Part shown: one piece after another, positions 7,083 to 40,984 of the stretch
Position numbering within the stretch: position 1 is the stretch's first letter
Layout of the letters: the number at the start of each line of letters is the position of its first letter
NCBI RefSeq assembly: GCF_031458255.1
Contig: NZ_JAVDYC010000001.1
Span: 1,116,001-1,180,000 of the forward strand
Source of the DNA: Catenuloplanes niger
Lineage (GTDB): Bacteria; Actinomycetota; Actinomycetes; Mycobacteriales; Micromonosporaceae
DNA length: 64,000 nt
Direction of reading: 5' to 3'
Made by a program: the position numbers and the translations under genes
The notes under the pieces: generated by a model
Database searches by the model: none
What the model was told of the DNA's origin: nothing
The model's input: only the letters and a program-made list of their open reading frames with translations

Positions 7083-9698
7083 CTAGTCGGTCACGACGCC
7101 GGTCAGCGGCGGCCGCTCGTCGGAGATCGGCCGCAGCTCGACGGTCTCGGCCGGTTCGGCCAGGTCGTCGCGGATCGTCGGGATGCTGAACTCCGCGGTC
7201 AGCGAGCCGGCCGGGATGTACGGCCACCAGTACACGACCTCGTGCAGCGGCCTCGCCGGTTCCGCGGGCACGCCGAACGTGTCGAGCAGCCATTGCGGGT
7301 CGACGTCCACCGTGGACAGCTCCGGTCCCCCGGCCGGCGGGAACGCGGCGTACACGGTCTCGGCGTAGTAGCTCTCCGACGGCGTGGAGAGCGTGAGCCG
7401 CCAGGTGAGGGTGCCGCCCTCGGTGACGCTGCCGGTGACCGGGCCCGCGGTGACGGTGCCGGCCGGGTCGTCGTTGACGACGTCGACGGTGCCGACGTAG
7501 TCGCCGACGAGCACGCCGGTCTCCGCCTTCGCGAGCACCTCGATGACCTCCGCGGTGTGGTTCCAGACGTCGTCACCGCGGACCGTGACCGGCACGTCGA
7601 TCCTGGTCTGACCCGGCCGGACGGTGGTGGTCCAGCTGACGCTGGAGGCACCGTCGGGCTGCACCACGGACAGGCGAAGGCGCGCGTCGCCGGCGCCGGT
7701 GACCGCGACCGGGATCCGGTAGGTCCGATCCTCGCCGGGCCCGCCCTCGGTGACCACGCGGCCGGCCACGTCGACGCGCGGCAGCGGGGTCGTGCGCGGG
7801 TCGGGGGTGCCCGGTGACCAACCCCAGGCGTCGATCAGCCAGGCGGTGCCGGACGCGGCGCGGGGCGTGAGCGTCAGCGTGGCGACGTCACGGACGCCGT
7901 GGCGCGGCACCCGGACCTCCTGCGCCCACACCGGTGTGCCGAACTCGCCGGCGGGCAGCCCGGTCACGGTCACGTCGCCGAGCGCGGTGGTCCTCCCGGC
8001 CGTGTCGGTCACGGACACGCCGAACGTGGCCGGCGGCGTGTTCTGCGGCACGGCCAGCCGCAGGGCCAGCCGCTCGGCGGACCCGAGCCGGGCGGCGGTG
8101 GGCGGGCTGACCGTCATCGGGGTGCCGGCCGCGGTCCAGTCGTAGCGGATCGCCTGCCGGCCGGGCTCGTCGTACAGCAGCCGGAACATCGCGGCGTGCG
8201 GCGAACCGTAGAACGGGAGCGGTTCGCACGCGTCGTCGTCGCGGGTGACCTGGTCGCAGAGCCGCGCTCCCCCGCCGGTGCGGTAGCCGTCGGCGGGCAG
8301 GATCGCGGTGGTCCGGTTGCCGCCGACCGCGTGGCTGAGCACCCGGGCCGGGTCGGCGGACGGCGCGCGGCGGCCGGTGCCGTCCAGCAGCGGCCGGACC
8401 CGGTCGTCACCGGCGACGAACAGCCGGGCGGCGGCCGCGATGTAGGTGGCGCCCATGGTCTGCTGCGCGGCCGGGGCGAGCCGGGTCGGCGCGTCCGGCC
8501 CGCACACCGCGTCGTCCGGCAGGAACCAGTCGTCGTTCGCGGGTGCGGCGGCCTGGCCGGGCGTCCACTCGGTGTTGAAGTAGTTGTGGTTCGCGCCGAC
8601 CGCGTAGAGCACGCTGTGCAGGGCACGGCCCTTGCTGACGCCGCGGGTCGCGTCGGCGAACATCTGGCCCTGCAGATCGGCCACGTCGCCGTCGCAGCCG
8701 GGCAGGATCGTCGCCGACGGTACGTCCGGGGCCGGGTTCTGCCCGAAGATCGTCGGGCCGATGAGCAGCAGACCGCGGATCGTCCACCGGGGCCGGGTGC
8801 CGGGGGTGAGCGAGTCGATCGCGGCCCGGTTGACGCCCTCACCGCCGCGGGAGTGGCCGATCAGCAACACCTTCGACAGGTCCGCGGCGGGCACGGACCG
8901 CACGATCGGCGGCGCGCCGGCCCGGCCGGCCCACACCTCGAGGTGCCGGCGCACGAGCGCGGACCGGGCGCCGGCGCCGGCCTCGTCGAGCGCGCCGTCC
9001 TGGGCGTTGATGCCGTTGGCCGCGATCGACACGGTGATGTAGCCCTGCGAGGCGAGCAGTTCCTGGGCCTGCAGATAGCCGAGGTGGCTGGGGACGGGCA
9101 CGCTGCCGGGCGCGCACGGCCAGTCGAGCGTGAAGTCGGTGCCGCCGTCCGGGGCGTAGCACCACAGGTGCCGGCCGTGCAGGAACAGCGCGAGCGGGCG
9201 GGCGCCGGGCGCGTCACGCGGGGCCACGACCTCGGCGACCATCTCGACCGGTGCGGGCAGGCCGGGCAGCGTCGCGGCGGGCAGCTCGTACCCGCCGCGC
9301 ACCGTCCGGTATGGACCCCTGATGCCGGGGTCGACCGGATTCGCGGGCAGCGGCGGGATCTCGGTGACCGGGGCCTGCGCCCGGCTCGACGACGGCCGCG
9401 CGTCGAGCGGACGGCCGCCGACCTTGACGGTCAGGTCGTCCGGGAGCGGCCCGGTGCCGACGTCGAGGCGGAGGGTGCGCTGGTCGGCGTCGGGTGCCGG
9501 GCGGCCGAGCAGTCGGTCACCGGCCCAGAACTCGACCATGGCGTCACCGATCGGCACCAACGAGTCCGAGCGCCAGGTGAGCTTGCCGTCCTCGATGGAC
9601 CAGCCGGGAGCGGCATTCGGTGGGGCGGCCGACACCGGAACGCCGGTGCCGGCCACCAGGACCGCGGCGAGCGCGGCCGTCAACAGGGTTCTGCGCAT
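7083..9698 (-). CDS. Large secreted alpha/beta hydrolase-like protein with C-terminal Calx-beta-like domain
   Basis: 871 residues from ATG 9698 (GTG 9704 possible). A signal peptide (RRTLLTAALAAVLVAGTGVP, ending at VSAAP) is followed by a beta-rich region and an alpha/beta hydrolase core with LALFLHGRHLWC, a nucleophile elbow LIGHSRGGEGVNRAA, and GANHNYFNTEW near the expected histidine. The last 200 residues are beta-strand rich, with VTEGGTLTWRLTLS and LTGVVTD typical of Calx-beta domains that bind calcium. Related secreted proteins of about 850-900 residues occur in streptomycetes. Substrate unknown. The stop TAG is part of the CTAG duplicated by the downstream IS element. Confidence 0.8.
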   Translation of the reverse strand: MRRTLLTAALAAVLVAGTGVPVSAAPPNAAPGWSIEDGKLTWRSDSLVPIGDAMVEFWAGDRLLGRPAPDADQRTLRLDVGTGPLPDDLTVKVGGRPLDARPSSSRAQAPVTEIPPLPANPVDPGIRGPYRTVRGGYELPAATLPGLPAPVEMVAEVVAPRDAPGARPLALFLHGRHLWCYAPDGGTDFTLDWPCAPGSVPVPSHLGYLQAQELLASQGYITVSIAANGINAQDGALDEAGAGARSALVRRHLEVWAGRAGAPPIVRSVPAADLSKVLLIGHSRGGEGVNRAAIDSLTPGTRPRWTIRGLLLIGPTIFGQNPAPDVPSATILPGCDGDVADLQGQMFADATRGVSKGRALHSVLYAVGANHNYFNTEWTPGQAAAPANDDWFLPDDAVCGPDAPTRLAPAAQQTMGATYIAAAARLFVAGDDRVRPLLDGTGRRAPSADPARVLSHAVGGNRTTAILPADGYRTGGGARLCDQVTRDDDACEPLPFYGSPHAAMFRLLYDEPGRQAIRYDWTAAGTPMTVSPPTAARLGSAERLALRLAVPQNTPPATFGVSVTDTAGRTTALGDVTVTGLPAGEFGTPVWAQEVRVPRHGVRDVATLTLTPRAASGTAWLIDAWGWSPGTPDPRTTPLPRVDVAGRVVTEGGPGEDRTYRIPVAVTGAGDARLRLSVVQPDGASSVSWTTTVRPGQTRIDVPVTVRGDDVWNHTAEVIEVLAKAETGVLVGDYVGTVDVVNDDPAGTVTAGPVTGSVTEGGTLTWRLTLSTPSESYYAETVYAAFPPAGGPELSTVDVDPQWLLDTFGVPAEPARPLHEVVYWWPYIPAGSLTAEFSIPTIRDDLAEPAETVELRPISDERPPLTGVVTD

Positions 9699-9881
9699 GC
9701 CCACTTTCTAGCAATACATGTCGATGCCTGGTCACGGGCGCGGCAGGGTGGCGTATCAGGCAGCGGACGACCGGCCCGCTCGCCGGCGCTCCTCCCTGCC
9801 GGTCCCGGCGTGGCCGTGCGCGGGCTCGGCGGCGGGCCGGCAGCACGCCGCCGGTGGCACGTCCGAGAGCCGAGCCCCGGA

Positions 9882-10367
9882 TCAGGCGCCGAGCAGCTCG
9901 TCGATCTGGTTGATCGCCGTGGTGGCGCCCTCCACCACTCCCATGTCCAGCACCTGCTGCAGCGCGTCGGCGGACGCGTACCGGCTGACGTAGACCGCCC
10001 GGGTGCCGCCGTCGTGCGCGGTGAAGGTGTAGACGTTCGACGAGGCCGGCAGCCCCGGCAGCGGGTTGAAGTCCAGGTCGGCGAACCCGTCCTGGAAGGA
10101 GAACGACCGCGGCTCGTCCACCTCCGTGACCTGCCAGTACCCGGCGTGCTTGTCGCCCTCGGGCCCGGTCATGTAGTAGGTGACGCGGCCGCCGGGCGAC
10201 AGGTCGTGGTCGACGACCGTGGCCGGGTAGCCGGGCGGCCCCCAGATCTTCTCCAGCTGGCGCGGATCGGCGTACACCCGCCAGACGCGCTCGACCGGCG
10301 CGGCGAAGTCCGCGGTCATCGTCAGGGTCAGGTCGTCGAGGTCGTGCCGGACATCGGTCACGGGCAT
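9882..10367 (-). CDS. SRPBCC/AHSA1-domain protein
   Basis: 161 residues, cytosolic. The fold family (START/Bet v1, AHSA1 branch) shows in ADFAAPVERVWRVYADPRQL, IWGPPGYPATVVDHDLSPGG and YYMTGPEGDKHAGYWQVTEV. Such proteins bind hydrophobic ligands in a cavity; no catalytic residues are known for this branch. It begins three bases after the HTH repressor stop, and its GGAGG ribosome site lies in the end of that gene, so the two are translationally coupled. The pair is a widespread actinobacterial module. Confidence 0.92.
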   Translation of the reverse strand: MPVTDVRHDLDDLTLTMTADFAAPVERVWRVYADPRQLEKIWGPPGYPATVVDHDLSPGGRVTYYMTGPEGDKHAGYWQVTEVDEPRSFSFQDGFADLDFNPLPGLPASSNVYTFTAHDGGTRAVYVSRYASADALQQVLDMGVVEGATTAINQIDELLGA

Positions 10368-10370
10368 CGG

Positions 10371-10715
10371 TCAGTCCTCCTGCTCGGGGTCGAATGCGAG
10401 AAGCGCGTCGATACGGGCGACGCGGCCGCGCCAGATCTCCTCCAGCTCGGCCAGCATGGCCGCCACCGACCGCACGGTCGCCACGTCACCGCTGGCCAGT
10501 TGCTCACGGCCGACGCGTCGCTTGGTCACCAGGCCGGCTCGCTCCAGCACGGCGACATGTTTCTGGACCGCGGCGAAGCTCATGTCGTACTCCGCCGCGA
10601 GGGCCGAGACGGAAAGCTCCCGGACCAGCACGCGACGCAGGATGTCACGCCGGGTGCGGTCGGCGAGCGCATGGAACAGAGCGTCCGCCCGCTCCACGTT
10701 CTCCTCGGTCACCAC
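10371..10715 (-). CDS. ArsR-like winged-helix repressor (HTH_20 type)
   Basis: About 114 residues. LFHALADRTRRDILRRVLVR and SVSALAAEYDMSFAAVQKHV are the winged-helix recognition segments of this family; there are no metal-binding cysteines, so it is not a metal sensor. No ribosome site precedes the GTG codons at 10715 and 10712, and the operator-like repeat ends 7 bp upstream, so a leaderless transcript is likely. A TTG at 10727 would extend it into the operator and is less likely. It leads the operon with the SRPBCC gene and probably represses both. Confidence 0.88.
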   Translation of the reverse strand: MVTEENVERADALFHALADRTRRDILRRVLVRELSVSALAAEYDMSFAAVQKHVAVLERAGLVTKRRVGREQLASGDVATVRSVAAMLAELEEIWRGRVARIDALLAFDPEQED

Positions 10716-10722
10716 CCCAATA

Positions 10723-10740
10723 TACAACCAATCAGTTGTA
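10723..10740. promoter_or_regulatory. TACAAC-N6-GTTGTA operator
   Basis: A perfect 6-6-6 inverted repeat immediately upstream of the HTH repressor start. Its AT-rich content stands out from the surroundings, and position and symmetry fit autoregulation by the winged-helix protein. Binding is inferred. Confidence 0.65.
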
Positions 10741-10866
10741 CGTTGTCAACGGCGCCGACGACACGACCCCACCCGGTGCCGGCCGCCGGCCCCGGGGCGC
10801 GCCGCGGATCCGGCGGCGCGACGGCGGTCGCGGCTCGTCCCGGTGCCGCGCGGAACCGGCTCCGAC

Positions 10867-10909
10867 GCCGGCCGGCAAGCGGAGCGCGAGCGGAGTCTTG
10901 CCGGCCGGC
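10867..10909. repeat. 13-bp perfect hairpin in intergenic region
   Basis: GCCGGCCGGCAAG (10867-10879) pairs exactly with 10897-10909 across a 17-nt loop. It lies in the 350-bp gap between the repressor operon and the SDR gene, where no coding sequence is seen. No T-run follows. It could be a terminator for unseen transcription or an RNA structure; neither flanking gene ends here. Confidence 0.5.
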
Positions 10910-11092
10910 GAGGTTGGCCCGCGGGAGCATGCGGGCCGCACCACGCCGGAAGCGGGAAGATCACGACCTTCGGCCCCTGGTCCATGTGAGTGCGTGGCCC
11001 GGTCTACTGCGGCGGTGCCGGCCGGATGCGTCTCGAGCAGCGGGGCTCTGGGTAAAGGGCGATCCTGACGGAGCGCGCGAAGGGACCCGATC

Positions 11093-11830
11093 ATGGCCGA
11101 TACCGCGATCGTCACCGGTGCCGGTGACGGGCTGGGGCGCGAGATCGCGCTCGGCCTGGCCCGGGCCGGGTACGGCGTCGTCGTGACCGATGTCGACGAG
11201 CGGGCCGCGCGGACGTGCGCGGACCTGATCGAGGGGCACGGCGCACCGGCCCACGCGCTGCGGGCCGACGTCCGGCAGCCCCAGGACCTCGATCGCGTCG
11301 TGACGCTCGCGCGGGAGCTCGGCGGGCCGCACGTGCTCGTCAACAACGCCGGCGGCTGGACACCGCAGCGACAGTATCCGCAAGCGGCGGCCGACGAGTG
11401 GACGGCGACGATCCACCTGAACCTGATCGCGCCGATGAGGCTCAGCCAGCTCGTGCTCGAACCCATGCGGGCCCGGGGCGGCGGCGCCGTCGTCAACATC
11501 GCCTCCAGCGGTGGAATCGGTTTCGAGGCCTACGGTTCACCCGAGTACGGCGCGGCCAAGGCCGGCCTGATCCGTTTCACCGCGACCCTGGCCGGCCTGG
11601 CGGACACCCACGGGGTCCGGATGATGTGCGTGGCTCCGGACTGGATCGGGCTGAGCCGGGCGCACGCCCAGTGGCAGCGCATGAGCGCCGGGGAGCGCGC
11701 CGCATCCCGCCCGCTGATCCCTCCGGCCGAGGTCGTCGCCGTCGTCCTGGACCTCGTCGCGCGGGGAAACGGCGGAACGGTCGTGGAGATGTGGGGAGGC
11801 GGTCAGCGCATCGTGCACGGCGCGGGGTGA
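11093..11830 (+). CDS. Short-chain dehydrogenase/reductase (SDR)
   Basis: 245 residues, a classical SDR. The dinucleotide motif TGAGDGLGREIA is near residue 8, the structural motif is LVNNAGG near residue 81, the catalytic Ser lies in NIASSGGIG and the catalytic Tyr/Lys pair is YGSPEYGAAKAG. Asp after the second strand (VVTDVDE) favours NAD(H) over NADPH. GAAGGGA precedes the ATG. It stands alone, with a convergent lectin gene downstream. Substrate unknown. Confidence 0.93.
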   Translation: MADTAIVTGAGDGLGREIALGLARAGYGVVVTDVDERAARTCADLIEGHGAPAHALRADVRQPQDLDRVVTLARELGGPHVLVNNAGGWTPQRQYPQAAADEWTATIHLNLIAPMRLSQLVLEPMRARGGGAVVNIASSGGIGFEAYGSPEYGAAKAGLIRFTATLAGLADTHGVRMMCVAPDWIGLSRAHAQWQRMSAGERAASRPLIPPAEVVAVVLDLVARGNGGTVVEMWGGGQRIVHGAG

Positions 11831-11865
11831 GGAGCGCGCGGCTGTCCCCCGCGTCGCACGATCAG

Positions 11866-11890
11866 CGCGGCGGACGTGACGCCCGCCGCG
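11866..11890. terminator. Short GC-rich hairpin between convergent genes
   Basis: CGCGGCGG and CCGCCGCG (11866-11873, 11883-11890) form an 8-bp stem between the SDR stop and the lectin gene stop. Position suggests a shared bidirectional terminator. The stem is short and low in complexity. Confidence 0.4.
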
Positions 11891-11918
11891 GCCGCTCCCG
11901 GATGCATGACAATCTCGG

Positions 11919-12428
11919 TCAGCGGTTTCCGAGCCACTGCCAGTATTGGCTTTCCCGGCCCGCACAGGGCTCCGTGGTGAGCAGGAACCCGCCGTAGCTG
12001 TCATCATTCGACCTGGTCAGGCAGAGGCCGGGGTAGGCCACGCTGTCGAAGTACGGTCGATCGCCCGCGTAGCGGACGGCCCAGTACTGCTGCGGGCTGG
12101 TGACACAGGAGTAACCGACGGCCTGCCGGCCGTTTCCGTACGCCGTCAAGCAGGAGTTGAAGTTCGCCGATCCGCTGTTGCCGATGATCCGATACACGTC
12201 GGGGTCCCCGGTGGTGTGCTGAAAGTACTGCCATTGATAGCGGAAGTCGCCGTTGCAGCCGGAGAAGACCCGCCAGCCGAATTGCACCGAGTGGTCCAGG
12301 CAGCCACCGGCGCTGTTCTTCACGTACCAGTACCCCGTGGCCGCGCTCGCGGGAGCCGCGCCGACGACGATCAGCGCGAGGACCGCGACGAGCACGGTGA
12401 GCAGTCTGGTGGGCTTCCATACCTTCAC
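11919..12428 (-). CDS. Small secreted ricin-type (beta-trefoil) lectin
   Basis: 169 residues. A signal peptide (hydrophobic residues 9-29, APASA cleavage site) leads to a mature domain of about 140 residues. Three repeats are visible, each with a CL.. start, a second Cys and a QxW-like end: CLDHS..GC..YQWQY, CLTAYGNG..SC..QQYWAV, LCLTRSND..PC..SQYWQW. That is the beta-trefoil (QxW)3 pattern of carbohydrate-binding ricin B domains. No catalytic domain is attached, so it is probably a free extracellular lectin. The upstream region at 12429-12657 holds no gene. Confidence 0.8.
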   Translation of the reverse strand: MKVWKPTRLLTVLVAVLALIVVGAAPASAATGYWYVKNSAGGCLDHSVQFGWRVFSGCNGDFRYQWQYFQHTTGDPDVYRIIGNSGSANFNSCLTAYGNGRQAVGYSCVTSPQQYWAVRYAGDRPYFDSVAYPGLCLTRSNDDSYGGFLLTTEPCAGRESQYWQWLGNR

Positions 12429-12657
12429 GAGCGTTCTCCCTCGGGTGCGTGTCAGACCGGGGCGGACGGCGCCGGCCGGTGCCCTCAGGCTAGGAACGCG
12501 GCTGCCGACCGGTCACGACACCTGTTCCGGGAACAGCGGGCCGCCGGCACCCCCGCACCGAATCGACTCCACGGCGCCGGGTCCGTTCTGAATTCGGGCT
12601 GAGAGTTGCCGGTTACGTTCCTCCGTACGGAGACACCCATCCTTTTCGGAGGCGACC

Positions 12658-13122
12658 GTGACAGCACGTCGAATCCTCATTCGCTCGATTCTCGGTATCG
12701 CGATCGGACTGACGCTGACCGTGACCGCCGGCCCACCCACCGCCGCGGCCGCGGCGAGCGCGTCACCGGTCACGTGGCGGCTCAGAGACCTGCATCAGCG
12801 CTTCTGTACGCCCACCGGCCTCGCGCGCCTCATCTACTTCCCCGTCTTCATCGAGGGCGCCTGGTCGCAGGAACTCCGCATCCGGCTCGTGGACACTCCG
12901 CCGGGGTTCGAGCCGACAGCGGGCCCGGACGTCCCGCCCGGCCACTCGGACGACGTCGGCGCCGTGGGCGCGGCGTCGGCCTGGATGCCCGCGATCCCGG
13001 AGAAGTCCGAGTACGTGCTGACGGTGCGCGCCACCTCGGGCTCCGAGACGCAAGAGGTCCCGGTGTATCTCGGCATCGACGACGACTGGCTGAACTGCAT
13101 CAACAACGGGCCACGGGGATGA
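12658..13122 (+). CDS. Small secreted protein, DUF5980-like
   Basis: 154 residues from GTG 12658 with GGAGG seven bases upstream. A signal peptide (residues 1-37, ending at AAAA) precedes a domain with TWRLRDLHQRFC, VFIEGAWSQELRI and VPVYLGIDDDW, which I recall as resembling the actinobacterial DUF5980 family of uncharacterised secreted proteins. Two cysteines (in QRFC and LNCINN) could form a disulphide. Function unknown. A 12-bp palindrome CTCCGTACGGAG at 12621-12632 lies in its leader. Confidence 0.65.
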   Translation: MTARRILIRSILGIAIGLTLTVTAGPPTAAAAASASPVTWRLRDLHQRFCTPTGLARLIYFPVFIEGAWSQELRIRLVDTPPGFEPTAGPDVPPGHSDDVGAVGAASAWMPAIPEKSEYVLTVRATSGSETQEVPVYLGIDDDWLNCINNGPRG

Positions 13123-13343
13123 CCCCGATCGGCCCGGACACGTCTTCCGCGGGCCGCTGACGACGGGACGCGGCGTGGTCACCGCTCGCCGGACGCGCAC
13201 CGGCACCGGTCCGGACCGGTGCGGAGCGCGCGCCGACGTGGGCGCGCCGGGCGGTGGCTGAGCCGTGGCCGCCGCGGCCGGCGCCGGCCGCGGTCGGCGG
13301 GCCGGTGATCGATGGCCGCCGTGCTCGTCGCGGCGGACGGCAC

Positions 13344-35816: not shown

Positions 35817-36338
35817 TCATAGGCCCAGGTAGATGCGGCGCACCTGGGGGTCGCGGCGTAGCTGGCCGGAGGTGCCGGTCATCGCCGCCTCGCCGTTGTC
35901 GACCACCAGGCATCGGTTGGTGACTTCGAAGGTGAGTTTGGCGTTCTGCTCGACGAGCAGGATGCCGAGCCCTTCGGTGCGCAGCCGCTGCAGGACCGCG
36001 ACGATGTCCTCGACCAGCTTCGGCGACAGGCCCATCGACGGTTCGTCGAGCAGCAACAGCCGGGGGCGGGACATCAGCGCGCGGCCGATGGCCAGCATCT
36101 GTTGCTGGCCGCCGGAGAGCGCCCCGGCCAGCCGGGACCGCATGTCGGCGAGCACCGGGAACAGCGCGTAGACCTCGTCCAGGGTGGTCCGGGTTTCGGC
36201 GTTCCACCTGCGGGCGTACGCGCCGAGCAGCAGGTTCTTCTCCACCGGCAGTCCGGGGAAGACGTGCCTGCCCTCCGGCACGTAGCCGATGCCGTGCCGG
36301 ACCATGTCGCGGGCGCCCACCCGGCTCAGGTCATCGTT
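35817..36338 (-). pseudogene. livF: 5'-truncated livF (branched-chain amino acid ABC ATPase)
   Basis: The last 173 residues match LivF: GIGYVPEGRHVFPGLPVEKN, signature LSGGQQQMLAIGRALMSRPR, Walker B LLLLDEPSMGLSP and the switch in ILLVEQNAKL. The N-terminal 60-70 residues with Walker A are absent. Homology stops near 36338, 20 bp from the DUF1906 stop, so the upstream part of the frame belongs to the neighbouring gene in a shadow frame. No other liv genes are in the window. It cannot bind ATP properly and is a remnant left by a rearrangement. Confidence 0.85.
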
Positions 36339-36357
36339 TCTCAGCCGATGCGCGAGG

Positions 36358-36939
36358 TCACCACTGTCCGTAGTCCGACGCGTGGGCCGTGTCGAGGTCC
36401 ACCGCGTTGCCGTCCATGGTGACCCCGTCCTTGTCCTGGGCCAGCTGGCACCGCTGGTCGTACTGGCCATTCGACCAGGCGTACGTCTGCCACGCCCATG
36501 CCACGAGCTTGTGGTCGAGCAGGTATTTCACCACGTCGTACGAGCCGTACACGCCGGTGCGTTCGTGACCGATGACGCCGGCGACGCCGGTGAAGTAGTC
36601 GGACACGCTCTCACCGGACGTCTCCGTGTCGACGCTGAAATAGATCGGCCGGTTGGCCGGCCCACCGACCTCGAGGTGTTGCGCGGCCGCGACCTTCGCG
36701 TCTTCCACGCCGGCGGCATGACCTTCCAGGGCGCGGTTGCCGTACCACTCGAAGTTGCTGACGATGTGGATACCGCCGCTGTGGTACTCCTGCACCTCGG
36801 CCTTGGTGAGCAGCTTCCAGGCGGTGTCCGGATTGCTCGGTGCGAGGTACCGGATGACGAAGGACTTGCCGTTCTTCTTCAGCGTGTCGACGCTCGGTCG
36901 TGCTCCGGAGAAGTCGACACCATTGGCTACCACTGTCAT
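36358..36939 (-). CDS. DUF1906 glycoside-hydrolase-like protein (Rv2525c-like domain)
   Basis: 193 residues from ATG 36939. GVDFSGARPSVDTLKKNGKS, FVIRYLAPSNPDTAWKLLTK, GIHIVSNFEWYGNRALEGHA, PIYFSVDTETSGES and the AWQTYAWSNGQYD end follow the DUF1906 (GH25-like TIM barrel) pattern. Asp and Glu at barrel positions are kept. No signal peptide or wall-binding domain is present, unlike secreted family members. It is the last gene of the borosin-type operon, 1 bp after the oxygenase stop. Its part in the pathway is unknown; action on a glycosylated or peptidoglycan-like substrate is only a guess. Confidence 0.8.
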   Translation of the reverse strand: MTVVANGVDFSGARPSVDTLKKNGKSFVIRYLAPSNPDTAWKLLTKAEVQEYHSGGIHIVSNFEWYGNRALEGHAAGVEDAKVAAAQHLEVGGPANRPIYFSVDTETSGESVSDYFTGVAGVIGHERTGVYGSYDVVKYLLDHKLVAWAWQTYAWSNGQYDQRCQLAQDKDGVTMDGNAVDLDTAHASDYGQW

Positions 36940-36940
36940 G

Positions 36941-37636
36941 TCAGCCTCCGCTTGAGGAGAGAGAGGTGAGCGTCTCGCTGCGCGCACGGCTGGGCAGGAA
37001 GTCGTGCAGCACCCCGGGCTGCTTCGGTGCGAATCGGAAGTCCATCCCGACCCGGGTGTGGCCGCTGTCGTTGGCGACGCTGCCGTGCATCAGAAAGGTG
37101 CCGTCGAACAGCAGGATCTCGCCGTACCGCACGGGTACCGGCGCGTAGTCGTGGGTGCCGTAGTCGCTCTCCACCCACAGCGTGTTGGTGCCCCAGGCGT
37201 CGACGAACGGCAGCCACGCGTTGATCTGGTCGGTACGGTGCAGCACCTGGTGGTCGGTGTGCCACGCGCTGGCGCTCGGCCCACCGGCGAGGTGCACCCG
37301 TAACTGAGGATTGCGGGAGAAGGCCAGCCCGCAGCCGAAGATCGGTGCGACGACCTCACGCATCAACGCGGTGTACACCGTCCCGAAGCCCAGATCCGCC
37401 AGGCGGTCGCGCAGCTGGGTGCGCAGCGCGACGTTGTCCTGATAGGTCGGGCGACCGGCGCCGTCGTCGTACAGGCCGGGTTTGTCGTGCAGACGGCCGA
37501 GGTCGTCGACCTCGAACGCCCGGGCCGCCAGCGCGGCGAAGGGATAGCGGCCGGTGTCGTAGCGCACCAGGCGCGCATCGCGCATCGCACCGCGGGCGTC
37601 CGGCACCGGGCTCAGCGGTAGCAGCGTTCTCACCAT
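36941..37636 (-). CDS. StrG/PhyH-like Fe(II)/2-oxoglutarate-dependent oxygenase
   Basis: 231 residues from ATG 37636. The iron triad is seen as His126 and Asp128 (SAWHTDHQ) and His184 (FLMHGSVAND), with Arg195 or Arg201 (HTRVGMDFRF) placed to bind 2-oxoglutarate. The pattern WLPFVDAWGTNTLWVESDYG recalls the StrG group of antibiotic-cluster oxygenases within the PhyH-like superfamily. It lies 5 bp after the Val-Asp repeat gene and 1 bp before the DUF1906 gene, clearly one operon. Hydroxylation of side chains in the neighbouring repeat protein is a reasonable, untested role. Confidence 0.8.
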   Translation of the reverse strand: MVRTLLPLSPVPDARGAMRDARLVRYDTGRYPFAALAARAFEVDDLGRLHDKPGLYDDGAGRPTYQDNVALRTQLRDRLADLGFGTVYTALMREVVAPIFGCGLAFSRNPQLRVHLAGGPSASAWHTDHQVLHRTDQINAWLPFVDAWGTNTLWVESDYGTHDYAPVPVRYGEILLFDGTFLMHGSVANDSGHTRVGMDFRFAPKQPGVLHDFLPSRARSETLTSLSSSGG

Positions 37637-37641
37637 CGGGG

Positions 37642-38436
37642 CTAGCCGTGCGTCTGCCGCAGGGCGCTGAGGATCACCGCTGCGGCGGTCTTCACCGGCA
37701 ACGTGCGGCCCTGATACTGGTACGTGGAGACGAAGGTGTAGATCGACGAGACGGGCGTCATCGCGGCCAGCTGGTTGACCAGAGCGGTCTTGTCCGCCTC
37801 GGTCCAGCGCCAGGCCGCCGCCTGGGTGTCGGAGGTCTGGTCGGGCGTGGACATCATCATCGCCAGGATCAGCTCCTGGTCGCCGACGGCCGGCGACTCG
37901 CTCTGCACGAATGAGCCGAACGTCTGCCACCGTTCCTGCGCCGGCACCGCATCGGTGAGCATGTAGTTGAGGATGATGACGAGGCCCTGGGTGGTCTGCG
38001 GGTCGGTGTTGGGCGCGTCGGTGTCACCCTGGCCCTCTGCCCACGCCATCAGCTTCTTGACGAAGTACGAGCCGACCGCACCGCCGAGATACTTCAGCAG
38101 CGACGCCTTGATCGGGTTCGCCTGTACCCAGGTGTTGAGGCTGCTGACGATCCGGGTGAAGTTGCCCGGCTGCGCCGGGACGTCGGTGTCGATGTCCACG
38201 TCGACGTCCACGTCCACGTCCACGTCGACCTCCACGTCGACGTCGATGTCCACGTCGATGTCCACGTCCACGACCGCGATCGCGTCGACGTCGATGTCCA
38301 CATCGATGTCCACGTCGACATCCACGTCGACATCGACATCGACGTCCACGTCGACGTCCACGTCGACATCCACGTCGACGTTGATCGGATCCATCTGAGT
38401 GCCGTCGGGTACGGCGGGCAGCACGGGTTGCGACAT
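37642..38436 (-). CDS. Val-Asp dipeptide-repeat protein, candidate borosin-type precursor
   Basis: 264 residues from ATG 38436, no family recognised. Residues 1-19 are a short proline-containing head. Residues 20-86 alternate hydrophobic (mostly Val, some Ile) and acidic residues with only a four-residue break (AIAV, 52-55) and single changes E69 and T84: 30 Asp plus 1 Glu in 67 residues. Residues 90-264 look like a helical globular domain (FTRIVSSLNTWVQANPIKAS, LVIILNYMLTDAV, DQELILAMMMSTPDQ). No signal peptide. It lies between the borosin-type methyltransferase (76 bp upstream) and the oxygenase (5 bp downstream), hence the precursor proposal. Such a strand would be strongly amphipathic and metal-binding. 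Confidence 0.75.
   Translation of the reverse strand: MSQPVLPAVPDGTQMDPINVDVDVDVDVDVDVDVDVDVDVDVDIDVDIDVDAIAVVDVDIDVDIDVDVEVDVDVDVDVDVDIDTDVPAQPGNFTRIVSSLNTWVQANPIKASLLKYLGGAVGSYFVKKLMAWAEGQGDTDAPNTDPQTTQGLVIILNYMLTDAVPAQERWQTFGSFVQSESPAVGDQELILAMMMSTPDQTSDTQAAAWRWTEADKTALVNQLAAMTPVSSIYTFVSTYQYQGRTLPVKTAAAVILSALRQTHG
38179..38379 (-). repeat. Hexanucleotide-type coding repeat (GT[CG]GA[CT])n
   Basis: 201 bp of imperfect 6-bp units encoding Val-Asp and Ile-Asp pairs. Codons are not uniform (GTC/GTG/ATC with GAC/GAT), so the array is not a fresh slippage product and the amino-acid pattern seems selected. The opposite strand is also open and would read Ser-Thr, but that frame has no operon context. 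The array is a likely source of length variation. Confidence 0.9.
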
Positions 38437-38512
38437 GGTGTGGTCTCGTTTCAGCAGTCGGCTCTGGTGGGTGGCATTCCGGCGCCGGTGATGGCCGGCG
38501 CCGGTGCGCCCG

Positions 38513-40984
38513 TCAGCTGTCGTGGACGACGGAGCGCAGGTGCGGCAGCCGCTCGGCGACGCCGCGCAGAAGCTGGTGGGTGGCGGTGACCTTCAGCCAC
38601 TCGGAGTAGAGCTGCAGGCCGCCGTGGGGGCGCCACGGCTCGGCGACGGCGCGCAACGACGCGACGGCCCAGCCCGGCAGCGACCACGCGGGCAGCGACC
38701 CGGCCCCGACGTGCCACACCGTGGGCTCGTCACCACCGGTCCCGCCGGCTCCTCCCGCGGTGATGCCCTGGATGCGGATCTCGCCGGCGAGCGTGCCGTA
38801 CAGCGAGGGCGCCCCGGTCAGCGGATCGACGAACAGGCGTACCGAGCCCGAGTCCCAGGTCAGCTCCCGGTTGTGGAACACGGCCTCGTGCTCACCGTCG
38901 AGGCAGGATCCGCCGACGAGCACCCGGCCCGGCGCGGCCGTGACGGTCAGAGTCGCGACGCGGCCGCCGCCGCGGACGTGGTAGACGCCGGCGTAGGGCG
39001 CGATGTAACCGGGATCCTCGTCTCCCTGCACCGGGCCGAGGCCGTCGATCGTGCCGGTCAGGCGCCGGCTCTGCCCCGTCGGCGCCTGCACCCGCACGGA
39101 GCCGCCGGCCCAGCGCAGGGCGCCGTCCGCCGGGAGAGCCCCGGCGATCCGCTCGCCGGCCACGCCGAGCACCGGCCTGCCGTCGGAACCGACACCGATC
39201 TCCACGGGTACGGCCGGGCCGGTGCCGGAACGCACGAGGTAGCGGCCGGTCCACCCGGCCAGTGCGGGGCCGGCCGCCGTCGGCTCCGCGGCGTCGAGTT
39301 CCCGTGCCGGCCCGTCCGCGCCGGTCCGCCAGGTGCCCGTCACCCGGCGCACCCGATCGGCGCAGCCGAACGTCAGCGAGGCGAACCCCACCCCGCCGGG
39401 CCCGTCCCACCGCAGCCGGCCGTCGACGAACGTGACGTCACGCAGCCGAACGCCGTCGAGAAACACCACGCTGGCGCCGTTCGCGCGGGCGCTGCCGACG
39501 ACGGTCAGCACCGCCCGGCTCGCCTCGTCGAGGTATACACCGCTCCACGGTTGCAGCGAGTCGCTCAGCACGTCGTCGATCGCCGTACCCAGGCTCGGCC
39601 AGCGGACCCGGTAGCCGAGGCCGTCGGCGAAAGCGAGCAGTGGCCGGCGGCTGCGTTCCCGTCCGCAGCGGGTGATGGCGTCGGCCAGCTGTCGCGCGGT
39701 GTGCACCCGGCGCAGCGCGCCACGGACCAGGCGCTCGTTCGGCGCGTCCGACACGACGGCGCCCTTCGCCGCGAGCTGCGCGGCGCCCTCCCGGCGGGTC
39801 AGCAGCAGCCTCCGCTCCCGGTCGCTGAGGCCCGGGAACGACTCCGGGGACAGGGCACCGGCCGGATCGGTACGGTAGCGGCGCTGCAGTTCGATGTCGT
39901 CGGCGAGCTGGATCAGGAAGTCACAGGCCGCGGTCGGATGCTGGTACTGATAGTCCTCGGGCACTTCGAAACCGGCGAATTCCCGCACCGCACGGCTCTC
40001 CCGCGGCCCGTGCTGGTCGATCTCCCGCAGCGGCCGGGGCGGCAGTGGCGTGTCACCCGGCCGGGCGAGCCCGAGCCGCACCGCCATCTCCATGTCGGTC
40101 GCGATGCCGTCCTTGGGCGGCAGATACAGCGACGAGATGCCGGTGACCGTCCGGTGCACCCGCGGGTCGGTGAGTTCGCTGAGCCGGTGCACCGCGATCG
40201 TCGGCTCCATCGTCGGATAGCGGGCGGCGATGTAGTGGGTGACCTCGTAGTCCTCGCCGTACGCACGTTGCAGGTATTCGACCAGGACCCCGAGGTTGCG
40301 GTTGTGGAAGCCCTTGCGGCGATAACCCATGTCCCCGATCAGGCCGACCTGCCAGAGGACGACGTGCATGCTGGTGTCCAGGCGGCGTCCGCGGATGAGC
40401 ATGTCGGTCGCCTCGTAGGTCTGCAGACCGGGCTGCGCCGGGTCGACGCCGAGATCGGCGCAGAGGCAGTCGAGCGCCGAGATCCCGGCCCGCATGACCG
40501 CACGGTGCCCTTCCTGCCGCGCGATCTTCATCGCCCGGTGGGTGGAGAGCACGAAGACACCCGGGTGGCCGTAGAAGACCGCCACCACCCGCTGCCCGGC
40601 CCGCACGTAGTGCAGGATCGCCTCGGTCATCTGCACGTACGTGTGGTAGCGCGGCTTGCTGTCCTCGTAGAGGACGTAGAGGTCGAACGCGTCGGGCCGC
40701 AGCCGGCGCAGCCACACCGCAGTCGGCACGTCCGCGACACAGAAGAAGACCCGGTCGGCGGCGCGCAACTCGGCCTCGGCGTCGCGGGTGAAGCCCAGGC
40801 TGGCGATGCCGGATCCGAGAATCAGCAGCGAACCCGGTCCGGCGGACGACGGGCTCGGCCCACCGTCATCGCGACGCAGGGCCGCCTCAGTGATCTCCTT
40901 GGCGAGGTCGCTCCACCGGGCCGCCGCCACCGCGGCGGATGGATAGTCCTCGGTGCACGGCGCCCGCCCATCGACCTCGATCAT
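38513..40984 (-). CDS. Borosin-type peptide backbone alpha-N-methyltransferase fused to BBD-like and beta-repeat domains
   Basis: 823 residues from ATG 40984 (GGGGGT upstream). Residues 52-285 are a tetrapyrrole-methylase fold of the borosin (OphMA/SonM) kind: LLILGSGIASLGF, YEDSKPRYHTYVQM, AVFYGHPGVFVLSTHRAMKI, MRAGISALDCLCADLGVDPA, and HVVLWQVGLIGD. Tyr106, Arg112 and Tyr116 align with OphMA Tyr66, Arg72 and Tyr76 as I recall them. Residues 345-408 (ACDFLIQLADDIELQRRYRT, SFPGLSDRERRLLLTRREG) resemble the helical borosin-binding/LigA-like domain. Three beta-rich repeats follow (about 478-552, 577-647, 661-735), each opening with a W/Y-x-G-x-Y step. No short hydrophobic core is seen at the C-terminus, so a trans substrate is likely. 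Confidence 0.88.
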   Translation of the reverse strand: MIEVDGRAPCTEDYPSAAVAAARWSDLAKEITEAALRRDDGGPSPSSAGPGSLLILGSGIASLGFTRDAEAELRAADRVFFCVADVPTAVWLRRLRPDAFDLYVLYEDSKPRYHTYVQMTEAILHYVRAGQRVVAVFYGHPGVFVLSTHRAMKIARQEGHRAVMRAGISALDCLCADLGVDPAQPGLQTYEATDMLIRGRRLDTSMHVVLWQVGLIGDMGYRRKGFHNRNLGVLVEYLQRAYGEDYEVTHYIAARYPTMEPTIAVHRLSELTDPRVHRTVTGISSLYLPPKDGIATDMEMAVRLGLARPGDTPLPPRPLREIDQHGPRESRAVREFAGFEVPEDYQYQHPTAACDFLIQLADDIELQRRYRTDPAGALSPESFPGLSDRERRLLLTRREGAAQLAAKGAVVSDAPNERLVRGALRRVHTARQLADAITRCGRERSRRPLLAFADGLGYRVRWPSLGTAIDDVLSDSLQPWSGVYLDEASRAVLTVVGSARANGASVVFLDGVRLRDVTFVDGRLRWDGPGGVGFASLTFGCADRVRRVTGTWRTGADGPARELDAAEPTAAGPALAGWTGRYLVRSGTGPAVPVEIGVGSDGRPVLGVAGERIAGALPADGALRWAGGSVRVQAPTGQSRRLTGTIDGLGPVQGDEDPGYIAPYAGVYHVRGGGRVATLTVTAAPGRVLVGGSCLDGEHEAVFHNRELTWDSGSVRLFVDPLTGAPSLYGTLAGEIRIQGITAGGAGGTGGDEPTVWHVGAGSLPAWSLPGWAVASLRAVAEPWRPHGGLQLYSEWLKVTATHQLLRGVAERLPHLRSVVHDS

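Follow-up and report, generated by a model that had tools for sequence, protein, structure and literature searches.

A four-gene operon of Catenuloplanes niger likely encodes a split, trans-acting borosin system, in which an acidic repeat strand remains part of a larger protein. The operon lies on the minus strand of a 64,000-nucleotide stretch of contig NZ_JAVDYC010000001.1 (positions 1,116,001 to 1,180,000), hereafter called the window. By homology, its first gene encodes a borosin-type peptide N-methyltransferase (P0002) that is closest to OphMA. The second gene encodes a Val/Ile-Asp repeat protein (P0001), the proposed substrate, and is followed by genes for a 2-oxoglutarate (2OG)/Fe(II) oxygenase and a DUF1906 protein (Table 1). 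These protein families had been named correctly in an initial annotation of the stretch, which overlooked the borosin-binding domain (BBD) of P0002, its C-terminal region of about 400 residues and the 177-residue domain of P0001. The operon layout was reproduced with ATG starts, giving gaps of 76, 5 and 1 bp. The start positions are choices, since the open reading frames (ORFs) of genes 1, 3 and 4 stay open further upstream and could be extended to 41392, 37930 and 36987, respectively.

P0002 matches the Pfam family TP_methylase with 39 bits. Using phmmer against solved structures, its residues 49-407 were aligned with OphMA (E 1.3e-72) and residues 51-307 with SonM (E 5.6e-40). Since the OphMA alignment extends to residue 407, the match spans methyltransferase, clasp and BBD; of the two enzymes, the fused fungal one is the better match. 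OphMA also ranked first (E 5.4e-27) in a Foldseek search with an AlphaFold model of P0002, which has a mean predicted local distance difference test (pLDDT) of 57 and a predicted template modelling score (pTM) of 0.46. According to the alignment, the catalytic, S-adenosylmethionine- and substrate-site residues probed in KchMA, a self-methylating bacterial type III borosin from Kitasatospora cheerisanensis (PMC11395268), are all kept in P0002. Y106, R112, Y116, Y138, S169 and Q212 correspond to KchMA Y73, R79, Y83, Y105, S136 and Q179, an offset of 33, and Y103 likewise stands at +33. The KchMA equivalents of the substitutions Y116F, R112A and S169A had a lower activity (PMC11395268). The BBD assignment is supported by hhalign, in which P0002 residues 338-412 matched three split-borosin leader domains that come from the family or class of the window (83.5%, E 8e-6, 35 columns). 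About 400 residues of P0002 lie beyond the BBD. Residues 504-754 resemble the beta-type region of precursors with (TTEV)n cores (hhalign 94.9%, E 4e-8), a region that is located on the precursor in those loci and on the enzyme here; it was modelled mainly as strands in the low-confidence P0002 model.

Relatives were collected in a methyltransferase-first scan, for which a 115-residue piece of the enzyme was compared with the genome_contigs collection (84,980 species). At least 569 stretches encode a relative of the methyltransferase; the 80 best loci were taken further. Using tblastn, the C-terminal domain of P0001 was found in five of these 80, namely in two Paenibacillus loci (L015, L017), Pseudoduganella flava (L016), an uncultured Flavobacteriaceae (L019) and Ruegeria atlantica (L020). 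Within the best 80 of the at least 569, these five belong to the six loci most similar to the query, the sixth being from Streptomyces (L018), and each of the five also has the oxygenase. On plasmids, the methyltransferase was present in 12 records and the C-terminal domain in the best three of these 12, which come from Azospirillum lipoferum 4B and, in two cases, from Mycetohabitans endofungorum. The eight other repeat-protein loci are spread over Bacillota, Pseudomonadota and Bacteroidota.

A quick tree was built from 88 methyltransferase rows, with Shimodaira-Hasegawa-like approximate likelihood ratio test (SH-aLRT) values as its sole support and no bootstrap. In it, the nine repeat-protein enzymes and L018 formed one group of 10 rows (SH-aLRT 98), while other parts of the tree contain long branches. 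This group is nested in a group of 25 rows (SH-aLRT 97) that includes KchMA. The repeat protein accompanies the methyltransferase in the window and in eight of the nine other members of the smaller group, and so does the oxygenase. Together with the reported N-methylation of the V/I-D-rich KchMA core (PMC11395268), this gives good support to the earlier proposal that the repeat protein is the trans substrate, and the oxygenase stands as its partner. The annotation had held that a methyltransferase family occurring without the repeat gene would speak against its reading. This is indeed the situation in the wider family and in L018, but not in the remaining eight members of the group.

As a check, the annotation had also suggested a co-occurrence search for the gene order across Micromonosporaceae, the family of the window. 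Among 300 genomes drawn from this family, the C-terminal-domain profile matched only that of the window itself, and the recurrence described above lies in other phyla. The methyltransferase was found in four of the same 300 genomes at E 1e-20, with more than 35% identity only in the window's own, and in one of five genomes of the genus. This scattered distribution points to horizontal acquisition, and the gene set is apparently rare and horizontally spread. Among the open-access papers listed in the literature searches, none describes it in its title or abstract opening.

P0001 has a calculated average mass of 28,477.4 Da. Between D21 and D85 it contains 30 Asp, and the 32 intervening positions hold 24 Val and 5 Ile. 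In a six-frame translation of the window, ([VIT]D)x8 was found in the P0001 gene only. Across 83 loci (2.8 million six-frame residues), ([VIT]D)x5 occurred in eight, exactly those with a repeat protein. In the nine (V/I-D) runs, 316 of 331 Asp fall in one parity, and every run is interrupted in its centre by a single D-X5-D gap of hydrophobic residues (AIAVV, FLAVV, VFAVI, AFVVV, FVVIA or ALVVV). As judged by eye, the 15 off-parity Asp sit mostly in the flanks and in a DDD before the gap in L016 and L095. The runs do not represent nine independent cases, because two pairs are near-identical (L015/L017 and L096/L097). In the Paenibacillus pair L015/L017, the core shows 29 synonymous and 1 nonsynonymous codon differences over 86 codons, compared to 68 and 31 over 350 codons of the N-terminal domain and 37 and 7 over 171 codons of the C-terminal domain. 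The codon differences in the core are thus mostly synonymous and, hence, the repeat is maintained at the protein level.

The C-terminal domain of P0001 shares 26-32% identity with five relatives and has 17 invariant columns among seven rows. We considered whether it could be a hidden BBD and rejected this (hhalign 0.3%). A search for relatives of the domain in viral contigs gave none, with 53 pattern matches only. Comparing the precursor profile to solved structures gave no match at E 1. The model of the long L016 precursor has a mean pLDDT of 53.8 (about 30 in the core) and found no match in the PDB below E 1e-3, the best being VHL at E 3e-3. In a simple hydropathy scan, a weak segment preceded the core in five of nine precursors and none was seen in P0001; transmembrane flanks of the core are therefore not claimed.

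In the eight other loci (L015-L017, L019, L020 and L095-L097) the repeat protein is 607-634 residues long and consists of an N-terminal domain of about 340 residues, the core and the C-terminal domain. The repeat gene is followed by the methyltransferase and then the oxygenase gene, and in L019 a 537-residue ORF lies between the latter two. Upstream of the repeat gene, all eight loci encode a companion protein in one or two copies, which is about 570-630 residues long and mostly has an acidic tail. The start codons in these relatives are chosen, above all in L020. Against solved structures, the companion profile gave only coiled-coil-type and weak matches. An all-against-all comparison of ORFs from 14 loci and the window, antisense shadow ORFs aside, revealed no further gene common to more than four, and in surroundings of about 10 kb most of the loci compared had only the companion, repeat-protein, methyltransferase and oxygenase genes in common. 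The order in the window differs, with the methyltransferase gene first, followed by the repeat, oxygenase and DUF1906 genes.

With OphMA, P0002 shares methyltransferase, clasp and BBD in a single chain that can be aligned to the end of the BBD. The OphMA core differs in being in cis, and it is short and hydrophobic. We identified the KchMA gene as L025, in which T747/D748 and nine published residues stand at their stated numbers and residues 742-796 are V/I-D-rich. KchMA and P0002 align over methyltransferase, BBD and middle region with 34% identity. Up to 11 modifications are described within residues 742-796 of KchMA, with a preference for nonpolar residues (Ala, Val, Leu) and some modification on Asp, and acidic residues alternate with others in type III cores (PMC11395268). 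A V/I-D-rich borosin core as such is thus already known, contrary to the statement in the annotation that none had been described. The KchMA core is fused C-terminally and less regular, whereas the window core sits on a separate protein with stricter alternation, and the KchMA locus lacks an oxygenase match. SonM/SonA, a type IV split borosin (PMC8429565), likewise has its core on a separate protein. There, the leader of SonA is the BBD, whereas in the window the BBD is on the enzyme and P0001 has an apparently unrelated C-terminal domain instead. In class 2 borosins methyltransferase and BBD are together and the core is separate (PMC11395268), an arrangement that, by sequence, resembles P0002 and the putative core on P0001. 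Type VIII, as described in PMC11395268, has about 160 residues after the core, compared to 177 in P0001, and the system in the window is possibly a type VIII split borosin.

To look for similar cores, we used a screen for acidic, beta-branched stretches that was tuned on known cores. Of the 83 loci, 17 had such stretches, all of them within the 25-row group and on the methyltransferase strand. They are of the VD type in eight loci and of the TTEV or TTDV type in six (L022, L023, L024, L026, L027, L028); the others are TEV/VEV in L021, AEV on the N-terminal side of the enzyme in L029, and the KchMA locus L025. Besides the window, whose core is treated above, the group members L018, L031, L032, L033, L035, L038 and L039 gave no such stretch. 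The oxygenase profile matched 12 of the 83 loci, namely the eight with a repeat protein and four with (TTEV)n precursors, and none of the other 71. In 59 of these 71 the sequence extends for 4 kb or more downstream of the match, and 52 of them also have 3 kb upstream, so that a few loci could have lost the oxygenase to contig ends. The oxygenase of the window matched PhyH at 2.6e-6, above the cut-off, and TIGR04324 (2OG-Fe(II) oxygenase) at 1.9e-11, below the curated cut-off. The HxD part of its putative metal motif is H126-T-D128, and the distal His was read by eye from the translation.

We propose that P0002, with its BBD in cis, would methylate several backbone nitrogens in the Val-Asp repeat of P0001, mainly those of Val and Ile by analogy with the homologue. 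The oxygenase would then probably hydroxylate the same core. The modified acidic strand most likely stays within its precursor, because conserved domains flank the core in eight loci and no recurrent protease gene was present in the stretches compared. With a methyl group on every other residue, one edge of the strand would no longer be able to form hydrogen bonds, and the strand would be extended, resistant to proteases and not prone to aggregation. A review describes a short, alternately N-methylated peptide as soluble, monomeric and more resistant to proteases (PMC3426787), which by analogy supports the view of the annotation that such a strand would not stack. Metal binding, also proposed there, and export of the core are guesses. 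Should the strand remain in the protein after modification, the reach of borosin chemistry would widen from small peptides to include structural proteins. According to PMC11395268, ribosomal peptides rarely carry N-methyl groups on their backbone, and the number of mature borosin compounds known is small. Here, a long, strictly regular acidic substrate recurs over several phyla together with the enzyme, the oxygenase and, outside the window, the companion. A broader and rather doubtful extension is that this enzyme clade writes periodic backbone methylation on acidic repeats with periods of 2 (VD), 3 (TEV, AEV) and 4 (TTEV, TTDV). The VD branch would then make a strand of about 80 residues, methylated at nearly every second residue and retained in a large protein that works with the companion, as a one-edged, polyanionic, protease-proof ribbon. 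If true, this would be a case of backbone N-methylation serving to make a structural protein and not a small natural product.

Several observations weigh against a retained, trans-methylated strand in the window. P0001 lacks the N-terminal domain of about 340 residues of its eight relatives, for which the window genome gave only a match at E 0.18, and the companion was not found in a search of that genome run without a positive control. The copy in the window could therefore be decaying or have been repurposed. Within the methyltransferase group, L018 has neither a full repeat protein nor an oxygenase match and carries only an 87-residue Asp-rich ORF (9349-9612) upstream of the enzyme. Since it branches next to the Paenibacillus rows, its repeat protein was likely lost or replaced. 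No BBD is recognisable in P0001 by hhalign. Engineered KchMA left acidic residues at the tested site unmethylated (PMC11395268) and, given this and the limited number of KchMA modifications, full alternation is a guess. The presence of the DUF1906 gene in the same operon is unexplained.

Among the alternatives, a classical borosin pathway fares best, yet we regard it as unlikely. In this case, a host protease would excise the methylated core, and the free acidic peptide would then be exported, in line with the known fungal borosins, macrocyclic peptides that are released (PMC7878506). In L028, the oxygenase gene is followed by an esterase gene that weakly matches S9 peptidases, and L023 has a related gene. 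In Azospirillum, two ABC (ATP-binding cassette)-transporter genes lie several kb upstream. On the contrary, no protease gene was seen in the operon of the window, none was common to most loci within about 10 kb, and the domain that follows the core is conserved between phyla. Even less probable, in our view, is that the methyltransferase modifies itself or another protein, while the repeat protein acts separately and unmodified, for example in cation binding. OphMA-type enzymes methylate in cis (PMC11395268) and the repeat protein has no BBD of its own, which would fit. However, P0002 stops short of the KchMA core position in the alignment and has no KchMA-like C-terminal core, and the repeat gene neighbours the enzyme throughout most of the group. 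A functionless DNA repeat expansion or low-complexity tract is hardly credible, for although Tandem Repeats Finder reports a 6/12/18-bp array at the P0001 core, it is 74-77% matching with mixed codons, differences in the Paenibacillus cores are nearly all synonymous, and spacing and central gap are kept across phyla. We thus favour the split borosin with a retained strand, whose features are listed in Table 1.

Table 1. Features of the operon in window coordinates.
Feature	Position	Strand	Remarks
Borosin-type peptide alpha-N-methyltransferase protein P0002	38513..40984	-	823 aa, gene 1
Val/Ile-Asp repeat protein P0001, proposed trans substrate	37642..38436	-	264 aa, gene 2
2-oxoglutarate/Fe(II) oxygenase, proposed tailoring enzyme	36941..37636	-	gene 3; PhyH, TIGR04324 matches
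Rv2525c/DUF1906-like protein	36358..36939	-	gene 4; PF08924 match
Methyltransferase domain of P0002, ~residues 49-306	40067..40840	-	phmmer, Pfam
Borosin-binding domain (BBD) of P0002, in cis, ~residues 338-412	39749..39973	-	OphMA alignment, hhalign
Beta-type region of P0002, ~residues 475-750	38735..39562	-	hhalign; strands in low-confidence model
(V/I-D)n core of P0001, residues 20-86, one central D-X5-D gap (AIAVV)	38179..38379	-	
C-terminal domain of P0001 (P0005), residues 88-264, 177 aa	37645..38175	-	conserved in relatives

The DUF1906 protein matches PF08924 at 2.2e-26. The annotation had counted it as part of the system. We reject it as a core component, since such a gene was found in none of the eight repeat-protein loci and in one of the 83 related loci, L028 from Microcystis, at 667-1323 upstream of the borosin locus. 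When P0002, P0003, P0004 and P0005 were compared to PHROGs, only the DUF1906 protein matched, to two endolysin families and one family of unknown function. Searched against PADLOC at E 0.01, neither the four proteins of the window operon nor two proteins of L016 matched any family.

The end of the DUF1906 gene is overlapped by an ABC-transporter ATPase ORF (LivF/UrtE-like, 35817-36470). This ORF lacks the Walker A part, since it aligns with the Pfam profile only from profile position 43, and one simple pattern did not find that part in the window. From its sequence, it is likely a truncated remnant at the edge of the operon.

Further variants were seen among the related loci. The precursors of L023, L026, L027 and L028 combine a beta-type region with a (TTEV)n core, with the same oxygenase family present. 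In L021 (Desulforamulus), a separate 198-residue TEV/VEV-repeat ORF (12571-13167) adjoins a long methyltransferase ORF. The enzymes of L029 (Erwinia, 9212-12214) and L038 (Xenorhabdus, 600-2516) carry an extra region ahead of the methyltransferase domain. Within the family and class of the window, L012 (2289-3008) and L014 (2337-2987) encode split-borosin-type precursors with poly-Pro stretches.

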